A stretch of DNA of 64,000 bases from a virus, in the IMG/VR virus record IMGVR_UViG_3300025102_000021, positions 1 to 64,000 of that record; one strand, 5' to 3'. Positions 2,056 through 61,945 of this stretch are shown here, piece after piece. A model generated the notes under the pieces. That model saw only the letters and a program-made list of their open reading frames with translations, did not search any database and was not told the DNA's origin. The position numbers were made by a program, and so were the translations under genes. Numbering within the stretch: the stretch's first letter is position 1; the number at the start of each line of letters is the position of its first letter.

Positions 2056-2185
2056 GGAATTTAATAAAATTAAATTTCCTAATGATAATTCAAAAAGAAT
2101 TATTGTGGCTAAGCTTACGACTAACAGCGGTAGGGTTTGGTCGGTAGACGACAGTGTGACAAAAGCCCCTAATAAGAATAAGTAA
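2027..2185 (+). CDS. Small basic hypothetical protein, 52 aa
   Basis: Starts MKKDLKQRIKEF and ends APNKNK. It overlaps the previous gene by 29 bases in another frame and stops 7 bases before the helix-turn-helix gene. Lys-rich with a central VAKLTTNSGRVW strand-like segment. No family recognised. The tight packing between two solid genes and the lack of another explanation for the DNA support it. Its last codons coincide with the left half of the inverted-repeat element at 2155-2200. Confidence 0.5.
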   Translation: MKKDLKQRIKEFNKIKFPNDNSKRIIVAKLTTNSGRVWSVDDSVTKAPNKNK

Positions 2186-2200
2186 TAGGCTAATGTCACA
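2155..2200. repeat. Long inverted-repeat element, copy A (TGTGACA-N32-TGTCACA)
   Basis: TGTGACA at 2155-2161 and its inverse TGTCACA at 2194-2200 flank 32 bases that include GCCCCT and AATAGGCT. A very similar element lies at 56,817-56,864. The right half-site overlaps the ATG of the helix-turn-helix gene, so a protein bound here would cover its translation start region. Either a regulatory site or a trace of an ancient duplication. Confidence 0.5.
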
Positions 2201-16885: not shown

Positions 16886-19800
16886 TTAATCGTGGTAGTA
16901 ACAGTTACCAGATTTAGAGTTAGTTTTCATTTTACATCTTTTGCCATCTGGCTTAATATGCTTACACTGTTTTTTCTCTCCAGTTTCGTTTTGCTCCACT
17001 TTTTCGTGAACAGTACAAAACCCATCTTTAACTGGTTTTCTTTTACATCTATTACCTTTAGAGCTTATAGCGGCACAAGTAGCTTCTTCACCTTCTTTTT
17101 TCTGCTTTTCAATATTCTCTTTAACTTTTTGCTCGTTCTCCTTAACCTCTTGTTCTTTCTTTTCTTGCTTTTTCTTTTCAGCTTGTTCTTTTCGATCTTT
17201 AGCTTTTTTAGCATCAAGCTCTTGTTCAACCTTAAGCTGATTCATACGCTTGGTATCTAATGTAACTACGTACTCGTTTTCTTTACCTTCGTTTTTAATA
17301 ACCTCAGTTCCAACGTTTAAGTCCCAAGCGCTCCAACCTAAGAACAACATCATACGCTGCGTGTTGCTGTTATCTTTATTTAAGGCTTCTCTTATGTTAT
17401 CTATTTTACGTATAGCTCTAGCCATCGGTAAGTTTGTTGTAGCCTCAACCACGTTACCAATAGCCTGCCAAGCAGGGCTATCGTAATCTAACATAGACAT
17501 TTCGCTCATTACATCTCTACTAAACTTACGGGTTCTACCTGCAGAGTAAAGTTTTCGAGCTTTTGACCCAAGTGGTGGAGATACATTTAAAGCCTCAATA
17601 ACAACTTGAGCGTAGTCTGCTCTCCACCCTTTAGCGTCTTCCTCCATGTATTTCATAATCGCGTTTTTAAGAGTAGCAAGGGCAGCTCCATATATACCAG
17701 ATCCTCTAGCTAAAGAGTCAAACATACTATTTAATATTCTAGAGTGTTTAGTGTCTTCGGTTCTATCTTTAGCCGCTTGCTGTGCTTCTGTCAACTCTTC
17801 GTCGTCATCAAAAGCTAAAGCAAACAATGCGTTTTGCATAGCTGCAAATATAAAGTTTTGGACAGCGCCATAGTAAACTATTCTTGAAACGTTGCTTCTC
17901 CAGTCGCCTCTACCATTTATTAAATCACCAGCAGCTTTTTTTATAAGTCTGTTGTACTGCATTGGTGTGTTGGCAAAAGCAAGTATAATTCTACCTAAGT
18001 TAGAAGCTTGTTGCTGTGATATTTTATCAGGTCTAGCCGACTGCTGAGTTTCTTCTGCTATTTCTTGAAAGTCTAAAAAAGCTTGAGACTCAGCTTCAGC
18101 TTGAGACATACCTTGTTTTAAGTATTTGTTAACTCTATTTCTATAAAATGAAGCACCACCAGAAGCAATAGCAAAGCTATCCGCTATTTGTGTTGGTGTA
18201 AAACCTATTTTAAGTAGATAGCCTAAAGCGGCTTTAGCTTTATTTGTAGCACCAGCAACAGCGTTTGCAAGTTCTGCCTCATTTACGTTAGTAGCTAGAC
18301 CAGCTCTTCTGTTTCTTAAAAAGTCAGAGTTAAACAGAAAGCTAAAATCAGACCAATATTGTTTTTGGTTAGCAAAAGCTTTACCAGCTTTAAATATGTT
18401 ATTGTCCTCAAAGTTAATAAAGTTAACTGTAGACAAGGTTTGTAGCACAGCCGATCTAGCGTTAAAGAACATAATAGCACCAACAGAGTTGTTGATCCAG
18501 TTGTTCCATGCGTTTTCAAACCTAGTAGCGCCTTTTCTACGGTTTTGGCCAGTCTCCATACGGTATAATATATCCTCTAGAGCTGATCTAAAGTTACTAC
18601 CATATATAGCTTCGATTTTATTTAAGTTGTCTGGCGAAAATATTATATCTTTGTTTTCTAAAAACTCAGCTAAAAACTGTTTTCTACCAATTCTACTAGT
18701 AGCGTTTTGTAAGTCAAAGGCAATGTTCTCAACGTCCCAATTTTCAGTAGGCTCTAAATAACCTTGCTCTTGTCTAGATATTTTACCTAGCGCGTCAGCG
18801 TAAGCCATAAGCTCTTGATTCTGCCTAACTAAGTTTGTCATGTTAATTTTAGCCGAGTTAGATAGTCCAGGAATATCATAACCAGCTTTATCAAATAAAT
18901 AAACTCTTACAGCCATGTCGTAAGTATATTTGCCGCCCTCTGTAAGTTTACCTAATAGCTTCTTTACACTAGGAAACTCTTTTTGCAAAGCTTTATAATC
19001 GTCTCTAATAGCTTGCTTCTGTTGGCTCATAGCTCTGTCTGCTCTAGCAAAAGGCTTTATTAAAGCCTCTTCAAAAAACTTTACGTCTACGTCTCCCTGT
19101 GCTCCTGTACCAGCGAAGTATCTAAGTAAACCGGCAAAGTCTTCTGCTGAAGGAGGAACAAAAAAGGTAAATCTACCTTTGTTTTTACCTCTTCTTCTAG
19201 CTTCAACTCTAGAAAATGTTTTTTGAGCTCCAACGCCTTTGGTTCTTTCAAGCATTTGGTTAAACGTATCGTTAAACTCTTTACTGAAGTTAATTCTTGC
19301 TTGAACAGACTTTCCTTTAACGTCCAATGCGTCAAACACACGTTTAACAGCCTTAACGTTTGATAGAGCGTCGTCAACAAAATACATGTCGTTATAGCCT
19401 TCAGCGTACTTTTGCACAAACCATTGCGCTTTTGCTTCACCCTCGCTTTTACCTAGTCCAGTAATATTTTCTAAAGGTATATTTATACCTTGATCTTTTA
19501 GAAACTGATGTATTGGACTAGCGGAAGCAGCAGGTCTAGCAGTTAATACATACACGTTGTCTGACCCATACTTTTTAATTTGATTCTTCATCTTTTGTAA
19601 AAGAGGACCAGGTGTTCCATCTACTACTTTATTAAACTCTGAAAAATCATACTCAGCACCTTGAGCAAGTAAGTCCGCTCCACGTAGAGCAAAGTCTTCA
19701 GCGTTGATTCTATCTTTTATATAGCCTTTCGTGAAGTCGTCCATTTCTTTAACGAACTCGGCTGGTAGCGCTTCTCCTTGTTTTAAGTTGTCTGTGTTTA

Positions 19801-22800
19801 TTTCCACAAAGCCTTTAGCAGAGTATGGAAAAAATGTTACCATCTCTTTAAATGCTTTTTTGTTTTTCTTAGCTGACTCTATACTGTTTCTAACAGTAGC
19901 ATCGGTTAGTCTTCTTTCAGATCTATTTTTGTTTCTTTCCAGTGCATTCTCTAAAGATGACTCAACAAATACTATTTGAACATCGTAACCAGCGTCTTTA
20001 AAATCTCTAGCCATGCTTTCAAACTGAACGCCAACAGCGCCTGTACCATCAATAACCACACCATCACCTTGACCTCTTAGTCTCGATGCTTTATTTTTAG
20101 CCGAAACAGCAGCTTCTCCTTGCAAGCTTCTCCACTTATCAGATTGTTCTCTGGTAAAGTCGTTCATGTCTTGTGGTAACCCACTATTCTTAGTTAACCA
20201 ATCTAAGGCTACATCTTGATTTATATATTTAAACCCTTGTTTTCTTAAGCCTAACTGCTTTACTATAGTTGTTTTACCTGCACCAGCGTTACCAGCAAGC
20301 AGTATAGCTTTTCTTTTTGGCTGAGGCTTGCCGCTTGGATTAGGCATTGTTAATCTAATACCAGACTTGGTAAAGGCTAACGTGTCGTCAAAGTCAAAAG
20401 TAGACATACCTTGAGGCTCAGCGCTTTTCTTTAAGCTTAAAGCGTTGTTTCTAGCTTTAGTATACTTTTTAGCATTTTCTATTTTTTTATCTATCTCTAC
20501 TCTAGTATAAGGCTCTCCGATTAATTCACCAGTACTTATGTCTCTAATAGTTTCAAGTTCCGCAAAAGGTATAGTTAAAGAGTTGTAATATCTAAACCAA
20601 CTAGGATCAACTCCAAATTGATAACCAGCGTTCATTAAGCTTTGTAGTCCTTGAGCTTTTAAAACGTTGTCCATTGTTTTAGGTATAACAGCTACAGTAT
20701 AGTCCTTGTAAAACTCGTTAATGTCTTTTATGCCACCTTTTTTATGCTCTTGTATTATTTTTATAGCCATGTAGTTAGCAGGTATCATGTGCTCGTACTC
20801 CGCTAGCGATCCTAATTGTTTAGGATTCATGTTTTTAACACTATCCGCTATATACCTTAAATTAGCGGCTCTTCTTATAGGCGCTTTCATTTGGCTGTTT
20901 GCACTTATCATAAACATAGCTAAACGCACGTCGTTGTTACCAACTACGTTTAGTGCCATGTTTATAACCTCTCTAACTTCTGTAGCTTCAGCTAAACTGT
21001 CCTCGTAACTGCCTTTTTCTACGGCGTACTTACTATCTTGAGGTATGAGCTTAGTGTTAGCAGCATCGTATATTTCCTGCGTCATACCTGGTATTTGCAA
21101 AACTCCCCAATTCATAAAGTCAGCCGCGCTATCAAACACCTGGTATCTTTGATCACTAAACTCAGTTCTAGGCTCACCATCTTTCATTAGTTGATCAGGT
21201 GTAACTTCATATAGCTTTCCGTTCTTGTCAACCTTAAACTTTCCTCTACCTATCTGAGCAGCACCAGCGTACATAGGTTTTAATATAGCCATGACTCTAG
21301 CTACTTCAGCTAAAGTATAGTTTACTCCTGTTTTTGGGTTAATAGTATTCAGCAACGCTTTACCAATGTCGCTAGGCGTTTTTCTTGCATCAGACGCTAG
21401 ATCTATATCGTCGTATAAATCTGAGCCTTTAACCTGCTTGTTTTGTATTTTTATGTTTAAAAGCTTTACTATATTGTCTGCTTCTTCGGTAAAGTTATTA
21501 GCAACGTAGTTACCCCATTTAAAACCGTCTTCATCTAACATAGAGTCTGCCACGGGCTTAAAGTACTTAGCCATCTTTACAATATCTTTAGCTATTCCAC
21601 CCAAGGTAGACGCTGGTATCTCGCCTTTAAACACGCTAACTAAAATGTCTCTTACTTCTTTCCAGTCTGCTACATCTTTTAAAGAAGGATTTATTAATGC
21701 GGATATTTGAGGTATTTCGCTGATAAATAAACTTTTCTTAGCAGGAGATAATCCTCTAAATTCTTTACTGAAAGCCAGGGCGCTTCTACCATCTCCAAAC
21801 AAAGCTACGGCAGCTGTTTCAGCTGTACCGTTCTTGATGTCGTTCATTCTAACACCTTGGTTAGCTGTTATAGCCGCAGCTTGCTTTATAAGTTCTCTTA
21901 TGTTGCCGTCAAACTTAGTTCCGGTCATAAAAGATCCATCTGGATTTATACCAAACTCTGCCCAAAACTGCTCTTTAGTTATGTCAGTTCTTTTTGTTTG
22001 AGCCTCTTTACCAACGGCACTACCACTTTGCTTCATTGATATTCGTTCGCCTTTGTTGTAAAACACGCCAAGCCCAGTGTTAGCAACTAGAGTTGATTGA
22101 CCAGACACTGTTTCACCCTCTGGCAAAGCAAAATCTCTAAGGTCTTTCCAGTTTTCTTTTATCGCGTTCTGCGCGTTAATTCTAAGGTTATTACTAAGAG
22201 TTTGGTTAGCTAATACTCTATTAGCCGGCACCCCAAATTTTTCAGCAACAATTTCCATTATATTAAACAACGATCCAGTTGAAACAACATCAGAAGACTT
22301 TGTTGGCACAACTAACTTTCCCTTTTTGTTCTTTACCTTCTGAACATCAGACACAGCTTTTTTAGCGTCTACATAAGCTAAACCAGTAGAGGTAACGTTT
22401 GACTCAGCTATAGCGTTTGATATGGCCTCCATATTTAACCCAAATGCACTAGCAAAAACCCCAGGTATAACAGCTTGCTCTCTAGCCTCTGTGTGACTAA
22501 GGTTTTGCTGCTCAAACGACTGTATCATATTATTACCCTCGTCCACAAGCATATCACCAAATGTAGCTCCGTCACCAATGTTTTTATCTAAAGACACGGT
22601 GTCACCACCCTTGTCTTTTTTATATTGGTTCATTACATCACCCTTAGCTCTAAATATAATAGACTTACCTTGACCACCAGCAACACCTGTTAACCAGCCG
22701 AATAAACTACCGTTTGTAGCGACTACATCAAAGCCTCTTCCTCTCTCACCTGTCTTCTTATTTATTTTCCCTAAATATCTTAACCCTATTTCTTCTTTTA

Positions 22801-30610: not shown

Positions 30611-33600
30611 TTATGTTAGCTGTACTTTTTGAGTTTTTAAGGTATCTACTGGATCAAAAGTGTTAGACGTGCCTGTTCCAGTGTACTTTATAGTATAAGT
30701 AACCTTACCGTTAGCGTCTCCATCAGAGTTAGCGCTTAAAGCGTAAGACACTTCCCATCTTGAAATATCGTCAACAGACAGCGCCATATCATGCTCTCCA
30801 GCGCCAGTTCCAAAAGAAAGGCCACTATCAGTTTCTATAACTACAGTAGCTACAGTTCTTTGCGTTGTGCCAACCGTTGTGCCACCATCGCTAGAAACGG
30901 TAAACACGTCATTTTCACTACTGTCATCAGACGCATTTACAGTCTGCGTAGCTGAATAACCTGTTCCAGCGGTTAAAATTGGAGTTTCAGTGCCGGCGGT
31001 GTTTACTATAGCAACAGTAAATGATTGGCCTGAAGTAGATGCTGTAACTTCTTCAGATTCTCTTATTTTTACAGTGTAAACGACGTCTTCCGTTATAGTT
31101 AAGCTACCAAACAAAACATCAACTAAAACTGTTCCAAAAGCCCCATCAGAGTAAGAGACCGTTATATCGTTAGTGTTAGCTGTGCCGGCGTTCGTAGTTA
31201 TTGTTAGACCTGTTGTCGAAAAGTCTGCTGCGGCAGCAAGGTCAAAACCTAAGTTTGGTGTTATAACCATAGAAAGACTTTGCAGCGTATTTTGATTGTC
31301 ACCGTCCATTACCTCAGCTGAAATTCCTTGAACACTAGCGTTAGCTAAAGATAAGCCTGTTGTGTTATCAACCATTACTACACTTACGTTTCTAGTTAAA
31401 GAGTCAGGTATTACCTGCTCTTCAACTTCAACATCACCATCGTTCATTGTTGGGCTAGGGAAGGTTACTAAGTCAAGAGCTGAAATACCATCGTCGCTTG
31501 GATCTGGGTTGTCAGCTTGACCTTGGTAAGAATACGTGTACGTAACCGCTGTGGGTTGACCTTCACCGTTGTAAGTATACACTTCAGTATAAGACCAGTG
31601 AGATGCTGTATTAAAAGCTTCTGTAGGATCAAAGTCATCAGCAGAGAACACATAGCCCGGTTGAGCCGTGAAAGTTGCAGAGAACGTCTCTTGTGCTGCT
31701 CCAGACGTGCTATATAGTTGACTTTGTCCAGATAAATTAAACGTTGCGTTTCCTGAAGCATCGTATGACGGCGCAAACACAGAGTAATCACTTAACCCGC
31801 TTATGTCATACGTGTAGTTTACTGGCTGATTTATTGTTACTTGAAACTCGTGGTCTTGACAAATGTCAACAAGGTCAACCTCTATAGGTATAGCGTAGGA
31901 CGTGTTTGAAGAAATAACAGCTGAACTTAGCGTTACAGTTAGGGTTATAGTATTTCCAGGCATGATCGTTTGAGCACTAGGCACACTAACTGAAGTGATG
32001 CCGCTAGGTAAGGTTCCTACTGTTATGTTTGCAGATGTAATTGCACCGCAAGCTGGAGCTGTAAGCACTATTGATTGCGTGCCTAAAGTATTTTGATTAG
32101 CACCGTTTTGTATGGTGCTTGATGGAACAACTACAGTAGTAGTACTGGCTCCATCTCCAGTTAACGTAGTAGTTAAAGAAACCGTGCTAGTGCCAAAAGT
32201 TGCTCCGCCAAAGCCAATAGAGTCTATTCTACCTAGTCCTTGTACGTTAAACTCTTGTGATGTTGGTAAGTTACTACCGTCTAGCTCATCACCATGTATG
32301 TAATTAAACCATTTACCTTCTTTTTCCTTAAACTCATGTATAGAACCTCTTTGCTTGTCTGTTATTATGCTTTCTACAGACCAGCCGTTTACAGCTGTGT
32401 TATTGTAGTATTCGTTATCGCTAAAAATTAAAGCGTCGCCACCTCCCACCGTGGCAGCAACATTGTCTACTAAGGTTAGCGAGGTACCACTTATAGACTT
32501 TACAACGCCTACTTTAATACCGTCGTCGAGGCTTACTGTTTGTCCAGCTGCTATAGCGGTGTTTGATGTTGCTAAAGTTATGCTGTCACTAGATCCGCTA
32601 GAAACTGAAGCGCCACTATTATCTACAGAAACATCAGGCTTTATAATCTTAGACTGAGTTCCCTCGTAGTTTATAGCTTGAAAGCTTTTGACAGCAGCAG
32701 GTGCATCGTTAAATATAGTTGTTATAGAAGACTTGTATTGCGTGCCATAATAGTTACATCTAGCAACGTCGCCACCACTGTAGTTTTTCTCATCGTGCAA
32801 GTAAACTAAGCCTCCGACCATCGTGTAATAGTTAGAGTCAAGAGAAACACCAGCGTCTGGAACGTAAGACTTAAAAGAGGTCCAGCCTTTAACAAATTCA
32901 GAGTAAGAAATTGTTTCTACAGTCTTACTAGTGCTCGTAACGTTGTAATGTAACGTTAAGTCATATTCACCTTTATCTCTATTGTAAGAACCTACCGCGG
33001 CAGATATTTCATCTAGTGCATCTCCAAAGTAGTCTCCCATACCAGCGTCAGATATAGCTGTCAATCCGTCGTTTGATAATCTTAAAACTTTATTTCTATG
33101 AGGGTCTACAAAATAGGATCTAAACTCTTCGTTGATAAAAGAAGATCTTAACGTACCTATACCAAACTCTCCAGCATACGGAACAGTTTGACCTAACACG
33201 TTTTTAGTTGAAGTCACTTGATTAGCTCCTGATGCTGTAAATAAAGCATCTTTGTTAGCTAACACTTTTACCGCTTTATGCTCGCAAACTGTAGTTATGT
33301 TTGTGTCTCTAGCGTTTAGTATTTGTATAGAGCCAAACTGAGGGTTTAAGTCTTTAGTTATTCCCGAAGAACTAATAAACTGATTCAAGTTGTTTACTCC
33401 ATTTTTAGAGTTGTATATACCTGAGAATATTAATCCATTGCCTCTGTCTTCTTCTTTATAGTTATCTGATGTAGTTGACACCTTTACGCCGTTCTCCATT
33501 AACGGAGCGTTAAAGTCATCTTGTATTCTATTAGACTCAACACCATTACCAAACTTAAAGCAATTAGAAAAAGGCAAGCAAAACATTCCGTTGTGGACTT

Positions 33601-56816: not shown

Positions 56817-56864
56817 TGTGACAATTGCCCCTTACTCTTACTTTCTTAATAGCCTAGTGTCACA
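56817..56864. repeat. Long inverted-repeat element, copy B (TGTGACA-N34-TGTCACA)
   Basis: TGTGACA at 56,817-56,823 and TGTCACA at 56,858-56,864, 34 bases apart, with GCCCCTTA and AATAGCCTAG inside and CAGTTTTGA after it. The same order of words occurs at 2155-2200 (GCCCCTAA, AATAGGCTAA, CAGTTTGA). It lies between the divergent promoters and could be an operator bound by the HTH protein whose own start overlaps copy A. Confidence 0.5.
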
Positions 56865-57085: not shown

Positions 57086-57319
57086 ATGTCTACATTAAAT
57101 CTCACTAAAAAGCGTTTCGTAATCTCTAAATCTTTAATCGGTCAAAATGCGATCATTACATTCACTAATAAAAAGAATGAAACGTATACTTACGATCACG
57201 ATGCAGTATACTCTGCTAATCAAGAAAAGTTTGAAACTATGAATTGCTTTCAACAATATGGTAATTACACTAACAGTAATAACTTACCAACTTTCGCTAG
57301 AGAGTTTCAAGTAAAGTAA
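57086..57319 (+). CDS. Small early protein, paralog 1 (77 aa)
   Basis: Starts MSTLNLTKKRFVISKSLIGQ after the leader AAATTAAATACT. It is clearly paralogous to the protein at 58,562 (shared blocks RFV.SK.L.G, FTNKK, YDHD.VY..NQEK and ETM.CFQ.YGNYT.SNN). Alpha/beta pattern, no known domain. The stop codon lies inside stem I of the hammerhead ribozyme. Possibly a small early-acting host-takeover protein. Confidence 0.75.
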   Translation: MSTLNLTKKRFVISKSLIGQNAIITFTNKKNETYTYDHDAVYSANQEKFETMNCFQQYGNYTNSNNLPTFAREFQVK

Positions 57320-57365
57320 TACTGACGAGATCTCAATGATCGAAACTACTTCGGTAGTCTATTAC
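57316..57365 (+). ncRNA. Type I hammerhead ribozyme, copy 1
   Basis: All core elements are present in order. Stem I: GTAATA (57,316-57,321) with TATTAC (57,360-57,365). Core CTGACGA (57,322-57,328). Stem II: GATC-TCAAT-GATC. GAAA (57,342-57,345). Stem III: CTAC-TTCG-GTAG with a cUUCGg tetraloop. UC (57,358-57,359). Cleavage is predicted after C57359. Stem I contains the TAA of the preceding gene. Positions G12, A13, A14, the A15.1-U16.1 pair and C17 all fit the consensus. Confidence 0.88.
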
Positions 57366-57383
57366 AATCTAATAATACAAACC

Positions 57384-57409
57384 TAATACGAGGTATATCG
57401 GATAATATA
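57384..57409 (+). promoter_or_regulatory. Phage promoter-like element
   Basis: TAATACG at 57,384-57,390, 10-nt spacer, GATAATATA at 57,401-57,409. It begins 19 bases after the hammerhead and precedes a 34-nt A/T-rich leader for the gene at 57,444. Confidence 0.6.
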
Positions 57410-57443: not shown

Positions 57444-57611
57444 ATGCAAGATTACATTACTCACTACGTTACTGGATTCGAAAACTTAAAAACAATACTT
57501 GATCAATTGTCATTAGATCCACTAGTTGAGGATTACACCTATGAGATTGAATCACGAGGAGAAACTGATGATGATCACTTCTACTTTGTACAGATTCTTA
57601 CAACAAAGTAA
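57444..57611 (+). CDS. Small acidic early protein, 55 aa
   Basis: Starts MQDYITHYVTGFENLKTILD after the leader AAATTAAATTACT. Contains LSLDPLVEDYTYEIESRGE and DDDHFYFVQILTTK, an alpha/beta pattern with acidic surface. The stop codon lies in stem I of the second hammerhead. No family recognised. Confidence 0.65.
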   Translation: MQDYITHYVTGFENLKTILDQLSLDPLVEDYTYEIESRGETDDDHFYFVQILTTK

Positions 57612-57680: not shown

Positions 57681-57770
57681 ATGGAAATTATACATGATAT
57701 TACTATACTAATTACACTTGGAATTATTTTACAATTTATTGAAAAGTGTATTGTTCACTCAGAGAAGTGA
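57681..57770 (+). CDS. Tiny membrane peptide, 29 aa
   Basis: Starts MEIIHDITILITLGIILQFI, one hydrophobic helix followed by EKCIVHSEK. Short and therefore uncertain, but it has an A/T leader and no other feature explains this stretch. A small membrane-acting early peptide is possible. Confidence 0.4.
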   Translation: MEIIHDITILITLGIILQFIEKCIVHSEK

Positions 57771-58561: not shown

Positions 58562-58795
58562 ATGTCAAATGTAGTAGAAAAAAAGAGATTTGTAGTCTCA
58601 AAAGGATTAGTAGGTAAAGGAGTAGTAATACAGTTTACGAATAAAAAAGGTGATACGATCAAGTATGATCACGATGGTGTCTACGCTCTCAATCAAGAGA
58701 AACTAGAAACTATGGAGTGTTTCCAAAAGTATGGTAACTATACTTCATCAAACAATATTCCTTCATGGGCGAAAGGTGCTCAGATCGAAGAGTAG
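58562..58795 (+). CDS. Small early protein, paralog 2 (77 aa)
   Basis: Starts MSNVVEKKRFVVSKGLVGKG and ends GAQIEE. It matches the gene at 57,086 along its length (FTNKKGDTIKYDHDGVYALN, then ETMECFQKYGNYTSSNN). As with paralog 1, a structured RNA begins at the stop codon, though not a recognisable hammerhead. Function unknown; a duplicated early module. Confidence 0.75.
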   Translation: MSNVVEKKRFVVSKGLVGKGVVIQFTNKKGDTIKYDHDGVYALNQEKLETMECFQKYGNYTSSNNIPSWAKGAQIEE

Positions 58796-58950
58796 TGTAA
58801 ATAAGTCGAAAGATCGCTCCACGTGGTGAACAACGTAAATCGTGGTACTACTAAAATAAAGTCCAGTTAGTTTAGTGTTTACTGGTAAATCAAATATGAA
58901 CACATAAGTGTAAATGGTTAATGGTGGTTCGACTCCACTCTACACTACTA
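58791..58950 (+). ncRNA. Structured RNA candidate with tRNA T-arm-like 3' end
   Basis: A 9-bp long-range pairing AGTAGTGTA (58,791-58,799) with TACACTACT (58,941-58,949). Inside it: CCACG/CGTGG (58,819/58,841), CCAGT/ACTGG (58,863/58,881), ACAC-ATAA-GTGT (58,900-58,911), and a T-arm-like GGTGG-TTCGACT-CCACT (58,923-58,939). A second AGTGTA at 58,907 could replace the 5' strand and form an acceptor-plus-T-arm minihelix. No regular anticodon arm fits, so it is not an ordinary tRNA. Confidence 0.55.
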
Positions 58951-61534: not shown

Positions 61535-61945
61535 TACTAGTCAGGTTTAACAATAAGCGAAGCAGTAGAAGTACTGTGGAAGTCGAAGTAGTAGCGGCGC
61601 TGGACCACGGGTCGCGAGTGTCAATACAAACCCTACTACACCTGACGCCGGTATAAAGTAGGTGGCATCACTGCGTAAAGTTACCGCAACCCGGCTCACC
61701 GGAAATCGGTTCCTACTTTATAATATACGAGCGTGGCGCGTGAGGTGCGTAGCGGAATGACTGGTAAGTGAGATTATATCAAGAACTTACTCAAGGTGAG
61801 CCGCGTCTTACTCACTTGGCCACCTCGTTTTTAATACGTGTAGAACCAGCGGATTTAATCGGTTCAGGGCTAGGTATGGTAACCGCGGCGTAAGCAAAGG
61901 TTTACTACTGACGAGTATGAGGTTCGATTCCTCACTAGCTACAAA
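61535..61945 (+). ncRNA. Large structured RNA candidate, about 410 nt, GC-rich
   Basis: Far more GC-rich than its surroundings and without a supported reading frame. Paired segments: GTCAGGT/ACCTGAC (61,540/61,640), an 11-bp perfect TATAAAGTAGG/CCTACTTTATA (61,652/61,712), GAGGTG/CACCTC (61,742/61,821) around AAGTGAG/CTCACTT (61,766/61,811), and an alternative GTAAGT/ACTTAC (61,764/61,785) that shares bases with the last one. The 3' end is a T-arm-like TGAGG-TTCGATT-CCTCA (61,918-61,934). It does not match tmRNA, RNase P or ordinary tRNA by eye. The mutually exclusive stems suggest a switch. Confidence 0.6.

Follow-up and report, generated by a model that had tools for sequence, protein, structure and literature searches.

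Two complete type I hammerhead ribozymes (HHR1 and HHR2) were found to begin on the stop codons of two successive small early genes in a 64,000-nucleotide stretch of viral DNA (IMG/VR record IMGVR_UViG_3300025102_000021, positions 1 to 64,000; hereafter the window). We propose that hammerheads placed on stop codons probably divide long early transcripts into single-gene mRNAs by cutting between one gene and the next. Cleavage in the cell, the resulting mRNA units and any effects on mRNA stability are what we infer from sequence, structure, covariation and position. The nearest relatives of the window terminase were terminases of phages that infect Flavobacterium, Cellulophaga, Tenacibaculum and Maribacter, which points to a flavobacterial host, and the window probably derives from a marine phage of flavobacteria. 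The two ribozymes and the features around them are as follows.

57086-57319, plus strand: gene 1, 77 aa, first gene of the early cluster (ORF call)
57316-57365, plus strand: HHR1, type I hammerhead; predicted cut C57359/U57360; leave-out model R2, 70.7 bits, 1.9e-16
57316-57321 and 57360-57365, plus strand: HHR1 stem I, 5' strand GUAAUA and 3' strand TATTAC; covaries across relatives
57322-57328, plus strand: HHR1 core CUGACGA; invariant in relatives except N7
57329-57341, plus strand: HHR1 stem II, GATC-UCAAU-GATC; pairs covary
57342-57345, plus strand: HHR1 GAAA
57345-57358, plus strand: HHR1 stem III with UUCG tetraloop; pairs covary
57359, plus strand: HHR1 C17, directly before the predicted cut
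57385-57407, plus strand: promoter-like motif AATACG-N10-GATAATA ahead of gene 2
57444-57611, plus strand: gene 2, 55 aa (ORF call); homologue in the same place in the related locus L106
57608-57661, plus strand: HHR2, type I hammerhead; predicted cut C57655/U57656; leave-out model, 52.9 bits, 1.2e-11
57681-57770, plus strand: 29-aa hydrophobic ORF, read from the sequence; ATG 26 nt past the predicted HHR2 cut

An earlier note on this DNA had described HHR1 as a complete type I hammerhead with the TAA of the 77-residue gene in stem I. Every element that it named was present where it had placed it, and the TAA (57317-57319) supplies bases 2-4 of stem I. HHR2, which that note overlooked, shows the same stop-codon overlap: the TAA of the 55-aa gene (57609-57611) lies in its stem I, and the GTAATA/TATTAC strands are identical to those of HHR1. 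Compared with HHR1, stem II and especially stem III of HHR2 diverge in sequence with pairing kept, and both copies carry the invariant core CUGANGA...GAAA and UH before the cleavage site. The hammerhead was also the minimum-energy fold of the isolated 50-nt HHR1 RNA.

To the assignment as type I hammerheads, relatives in IMG/VR lent comparative support. Scans with patterns for stem I and the core returned 57 loci; with the 5' or the 3' strand of stem I freed, 66 and 62 loci were found, and since so few were added, one strand nearly predicts the other. Among 49 distinct pattern matches, the unconstrained stem II paired in 47 (at least three free pairs) and stem III in all 49 (at least two). A covariance model gave 105 and 16 matches in the fetched loci. 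Strong covariation was present in all three helices of 104 context-unique relatives. In particular, 98.8% of the cells of alignment A2 were paired, 13 of 15 pairs contained double changes, and 306 cells were doubly changed compared with 75 in shuffles, a signal that collapsed when the pairs were slid. The core CUGANGA...GAAA with UH occurred in 88 scanner matches, position H17 being C in 79 and A in 9. The leave-out model, which was built from the elements of other phages and contained no hammerhead linked to the 77-aa gene, recognized both window copies with the scores listed above. Loop II was most often UNAAU, and an A adjoined stem I on both sides. A tertiary contact between stem I and loop II, such as is needed for fast hammerhead cleavage, is only suggested by this conserved loop and the flanking A residues.

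Of 103 context-unique elements whose upstream sequence was long enough, 75% had an ORF stop no more than 6 nt from the base that opens stem I, compared with 4% of random same-strand positions; these ORFs were called naively, by length only, many contigs were fragments and several loci were near-copies. The register of the window copies was the commonest. Because the loci were seeded with GTAATA, stems that contain TAA are over-represented. The upstream proteins fell into 58 unrelated clusters, of which 48 had a close stop. A hammerhead at the gene end is not unique to the 77-aa gene, and stop-codon anchoring in unrelated families, together with the covariation and the leave-out model, supports the view that HHR1 bounds a small gene on its 3' side. 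In many relatives, the next start codon was located 20-27 nt past the cut, which points to the cutting of polycistronic RNA, and AGGAGG was found a few nucleotides past stem I in the phages with arrays. A single bacterial match was also observed, on a Flavobacterium sp. A45 contig (L152:4162-4222, minus strand), just past a stop; the ORFs on either side resemble lipoprotein genes, and the upstream ORF had no Pfam match.

Several records contained hammerheads in arrays. One 22-kb record carried 15, about one per gene junction, and further array records carried 10, 6 and 5. Record G005 (60 kb), whose terminase belongs to the same family as that of the window, contained eight ribozymes over successive genes, five hammerheads followed by three pistols, all within a few nucleotides of stop codons and the pistols above the Rfam gathering threshold. 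No pistol ribozyme was found in the window itself. Ribozymes at gene junctions in a related phage locus (L122) and in cultured relatives were located as follows.

L122, 5688-5767, 6145-6190 and 6749-6813: pistol ribozymes at gene junctions, above Rfam gathering
Cellulophaga phi18:3, 21904-21958, minus strand: hammerhead between gp050 and gp049
Cellulophaga phi46:3 (NC_021792), 19461-19528: pistol, above gathering; the match starts within the end of gp046
Tenacibaculum Gundel_1 (NC_062747), 2564-2642: pistol, above gathering, 4 nt past the gp005 stop

Because the two folds are unrelated, have only self-cleavage in common and occupy equivalent places, at successive stops of one phage, they provide the strongest comparative evidence that gene-end cutting is selected. 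The same alternation of classes suggests that RNA catalysis is how mRNA processing is organised in these phages. The Flavobacterium elemo phages (68 records) also carried a hammerhead at a gene junction, here starting on TAG. Its stem II was GACU/AGUC and GGUU/AACC in elemoA (MT497065) and elemoB (NC_062741), a double compensatory change in sequences that are 97-99% identical, and elemoF (NC_055853) had the mismatched GACU/AACC, which counts against the proposed cutting; together the three phages provide a natural set of stem II variants of one hammerhead. Since phi18:3, phi46:3, Gundel_1 and the elemo phages are isolates, the proposed gene-end cutting is directly testable.

In the mechanism that we propose, the polymerase would read through the gene end, and the nascent RNA would fold and cut itself after C57359 or C57655. 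Hammerhead cleavage leaves 2',3'-cyclic phosphate and 5'-hydroxyl ends. The upstream mRNA would end 40-44 nt past its stop with a cyclic phosphate, and the downstream RNA would begin with a 5'-hydroxyl (on U57360 after the HHR1 cut) a few tens of nucleotides before the next gene. For gene 1, the cut would define where the mRNA ends, about 40 nt beyond the stop codon, and the promoter-like motif beyond HHR1 would restart gene 2; for gene 2, the cut would leave the 29-aa ORF as the next reading frame. Phages of this family would punctuate their gene junctions with hammerheads and sometimes with the unrelated pistols. The motif AATACG-N10-GATAATA occurred eight times in the window (at 295, 57385, 57952, 58303, 60095, 61262, 61949 and 63147) compared with 0.01 expected, always on the plus strand and each time upstream of early plus-strand genes, and is probably the early promoter of the phage. 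The earlier note had also suggested that the ribozyme separates the gene from the next promoter unit. This agrees with HHR1, where the motif starts 20 nt after the ribozyme, but does not extend to a general rule, as no copy was found between the HHR2 cut and the 29-aa ORF. No terminator-like site was found around genes 1 and 2, and homology of the 29-aa ORF to a 36-aa ORF that follows hammerheads in relatives was unsupported.

A wider proposal can be put forward only tentatively: that ribozymes of at least two unrelated classes tile the operons of flavobacterial phages as routine junction punctuation, with a cut timed by the ribosome. A ribosome of standard footprint size that terminates on either stop would cover stem I and the core. 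As the stop codon lies inside stem I, we hypothesise that the terminating ribosome should block folding and cutting until it leaves.

It is also conceivable, though unlikely, that the hammerhead acts as a conditional switch, in which terminating ribosomes hold the RNA unfolded and reduced translation lets the ribozyme cut, so that the fate of the transcript reports on translation. The stop overlapped stem I in 29 of the 58 gene families, 20 of which shared one register; however, roughly half of the families had it just outside stem I, and the overlap may be mere compact packing. In its 86-nt context, HHR1 had a minimum-energy fold other than the hammerhead, a point against the proposed gene-end cutting; the competing fold involved the coding sequence, which favours a switch, but no aptamer or sensor domain was seen.

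A less probable explanation is that of a passenger, a short hammerhead sequence, mobile or drifting, that has inserted at gene ends and does little for the phage. The 77-aa protein had at least 80 homologues in IMG/VR, with identities of up to 89%, and a paralogue in the window (58562-58795, plus strand, 57% identity), and its family is found widely among related viral contigs. Neither a Pfam or PHROG family nor a cultured homologue in the phage collection was found for it, and its confidently predicted fold (pLDDT 93) had no match in the viral or PDB libraries. Most of the homologues had no hammerhead, and the patchy distribution required about five gains or losses on the gene tree, at least three of them forced by well-supported branches of a tree built from few columns; the 77-aa gene therefore does not need the hammerhead. 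In several lineages, the difference between the forms with and without it fell exactly into the interval that runs from the stop codon to a conserved GTGACA...TGTCAC dyad, and this precise presence or absence marks the hammerhead as an optional module. Such a pattern would suit a passenger, but the strong compensatory evolution and the arrays with one element per junction point to selection for cutting, and the replacement of hammerheads by unrelated pistols at equivalent places argues in the same direction. In L106, gene 1, its hammerhead, the promoter-like motif and the 55-aa gene were kept and HHR2 was absent. Two copies of AATAAATATTACAAAAC were observed after the 55-aa gene of this locus (L106:12778-12830); they match the 3' product side of a hammerhead (TATTACAAAAC), the rest of which is missing, and are possible scars of a lost hammerhead.

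Circularisation, in which cuts on both sides of a gene would be followed by joining of the ends by RtcB or by the ribozyme to give a circular mRNA, is very unlikely. Gene 2 is indeed flanked by HHR1 and HHR2, and Cellulophaga phi38:1, which has a terminase of the same family, encodes RtcB. However, RtcB was absent from the window and from 16 of 17 related records, and phi38:1, the sole record with it, had no hammerhead match; a host RtcB could still join the ends. Perreault et al. saw no circular products (PMC3088659).

Finally, a chance or decayed hammerhead-like sequence, which the sub-threshold Rfam scores and the non-significant folding energy of HHR1 alone (z -0.8) might suggest, is refuted by the covariation and by the two matches to a structural descriptor within 650 nt of the window compared with none in 300 simulated Markov-1 windows. 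The descriptor also gave no match in 1.3 Mb of reversed related sequence. For RF00163, HHR1 scored 23.6 bits (E 0.0034 in a 701-nt search) and HHR2 20.0 bits, compared with a gathering threshold of 34, which is a curated annotation cut-off and not a structural definition. The earlier note had named such a sub-threshold score beforehand as one part of what would refute the ribozyme; the score was indeed low, but it is outweighed by the comparative evidence. Whole-window Rfam runs gave nothing at gathering and reported neither hammerhead; the two were revealed only by a local Rfam search and the purpose-built model. As the standard Rfam threshold misses these elements, their number in phages is underestimated. 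A separate loose-pattern match at 30892-30930 on the minus strand was rejected as a hammerhead, since the structural descriptor found only HHR1 and HHR2 in the window.

The window ribozymes share with the type I hammerhead family (RF00163) a complete core, three helices in type I order, the A15.1-U16.1 and G10.1-C11.1 pairs and UC before the cut. They differ in a short, open 6-bp stem I without a stem I loop, the conserved loop II UNAAU and the stop codon inside stem I. The RAGATH-1 hammerhead (RF03152) has the same core and stem order, but its matches at the two sites were weak (22.1 and 21.3 bits), far below the gathering threshold of 56.3. Pistol ribozymes (RF02679) occupy the same kind of gene junction in the related phages with an unrelated fold and mechanism. 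The clustered prophage hammerheads of Perreault et al. (PMC3088659) are a close known system, as several copies flank single genes; co-directional hammerheads of this kind lie at gene ends here too, two in the window and arrays in relatives. Polycistronic RNA was cleaved by the prophage elements in vitro, and one cluster was also seen to cut after cloning in E. coli. That work had already described in 2011 hammerheads of phages and prophages that cluster around single genes, and had put forward single-gene mRNAs. Those elements come from bacterial prophages such as those of Agrobacterium and Clostridium, and the passages covered name no stop-codon anchoring; in contrast, the elements described here belong to marine phages related to flavobacterial phages, reach 15 per record and are mixed with pistols. 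The same source describes a hammerhead of the haloviruses HF1/HF2, located 13 nt upstream of a start codon in the leader of an mRNA; it is likewise a phage hammerhead, but is single, from an archaeal virus, has a variant core and is tied to the downstream gene (PMC3088659). The HDV-like theta ribozymes of gut phages (PMC10879173) are also small ribozymes of phages and define the 3' ends of RNAs, but they have the HDV fold and cut at tRNA 3' ends. The role of bacterial and phage hammerheads has been an open question since 2011, and a 2017 review also called that of phage hammerheads open. In the literature covered, which included subscription journals incompletely, only Perreault et al. was related, and no earlier account of stop-codon anchoring, of such dense arrays or of hammerhead/pistol alternation was found. 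We regard these three points, including the interchange with pistols, as new, although a prior description is possible.

Two further kinds of element were observed in the window. Long non-coding stretches at 58900-58950 and 61870-61945 (plus strand) contain tRNA-like T arms (GGTTCGACTCC, GGTTCGATTCC) closed by possible acceptor helices; ARAGORN calls no tRNA there. An inverted repeat of 44-47 bp, GTGACA-(N)~33-TGTCAC, the dyad mentioned above, was present at 56818-56863 and 2156-2199 (both plus strand) and in many of the loci L001-L080, with two copies in the window compared with 0.04 expected and none in the reversed control. It consists of two similar half-sites, about GTGACAnTAGSYWRTTA, and looks like either a hairpin or a DNA dyad, such as a site for a protein or a recombinase. 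Its copies are often found a few nucleotides past a stop codon; in L006, L034, L041, L063, L065 and L077, the repeat directly follows a hammerhead.
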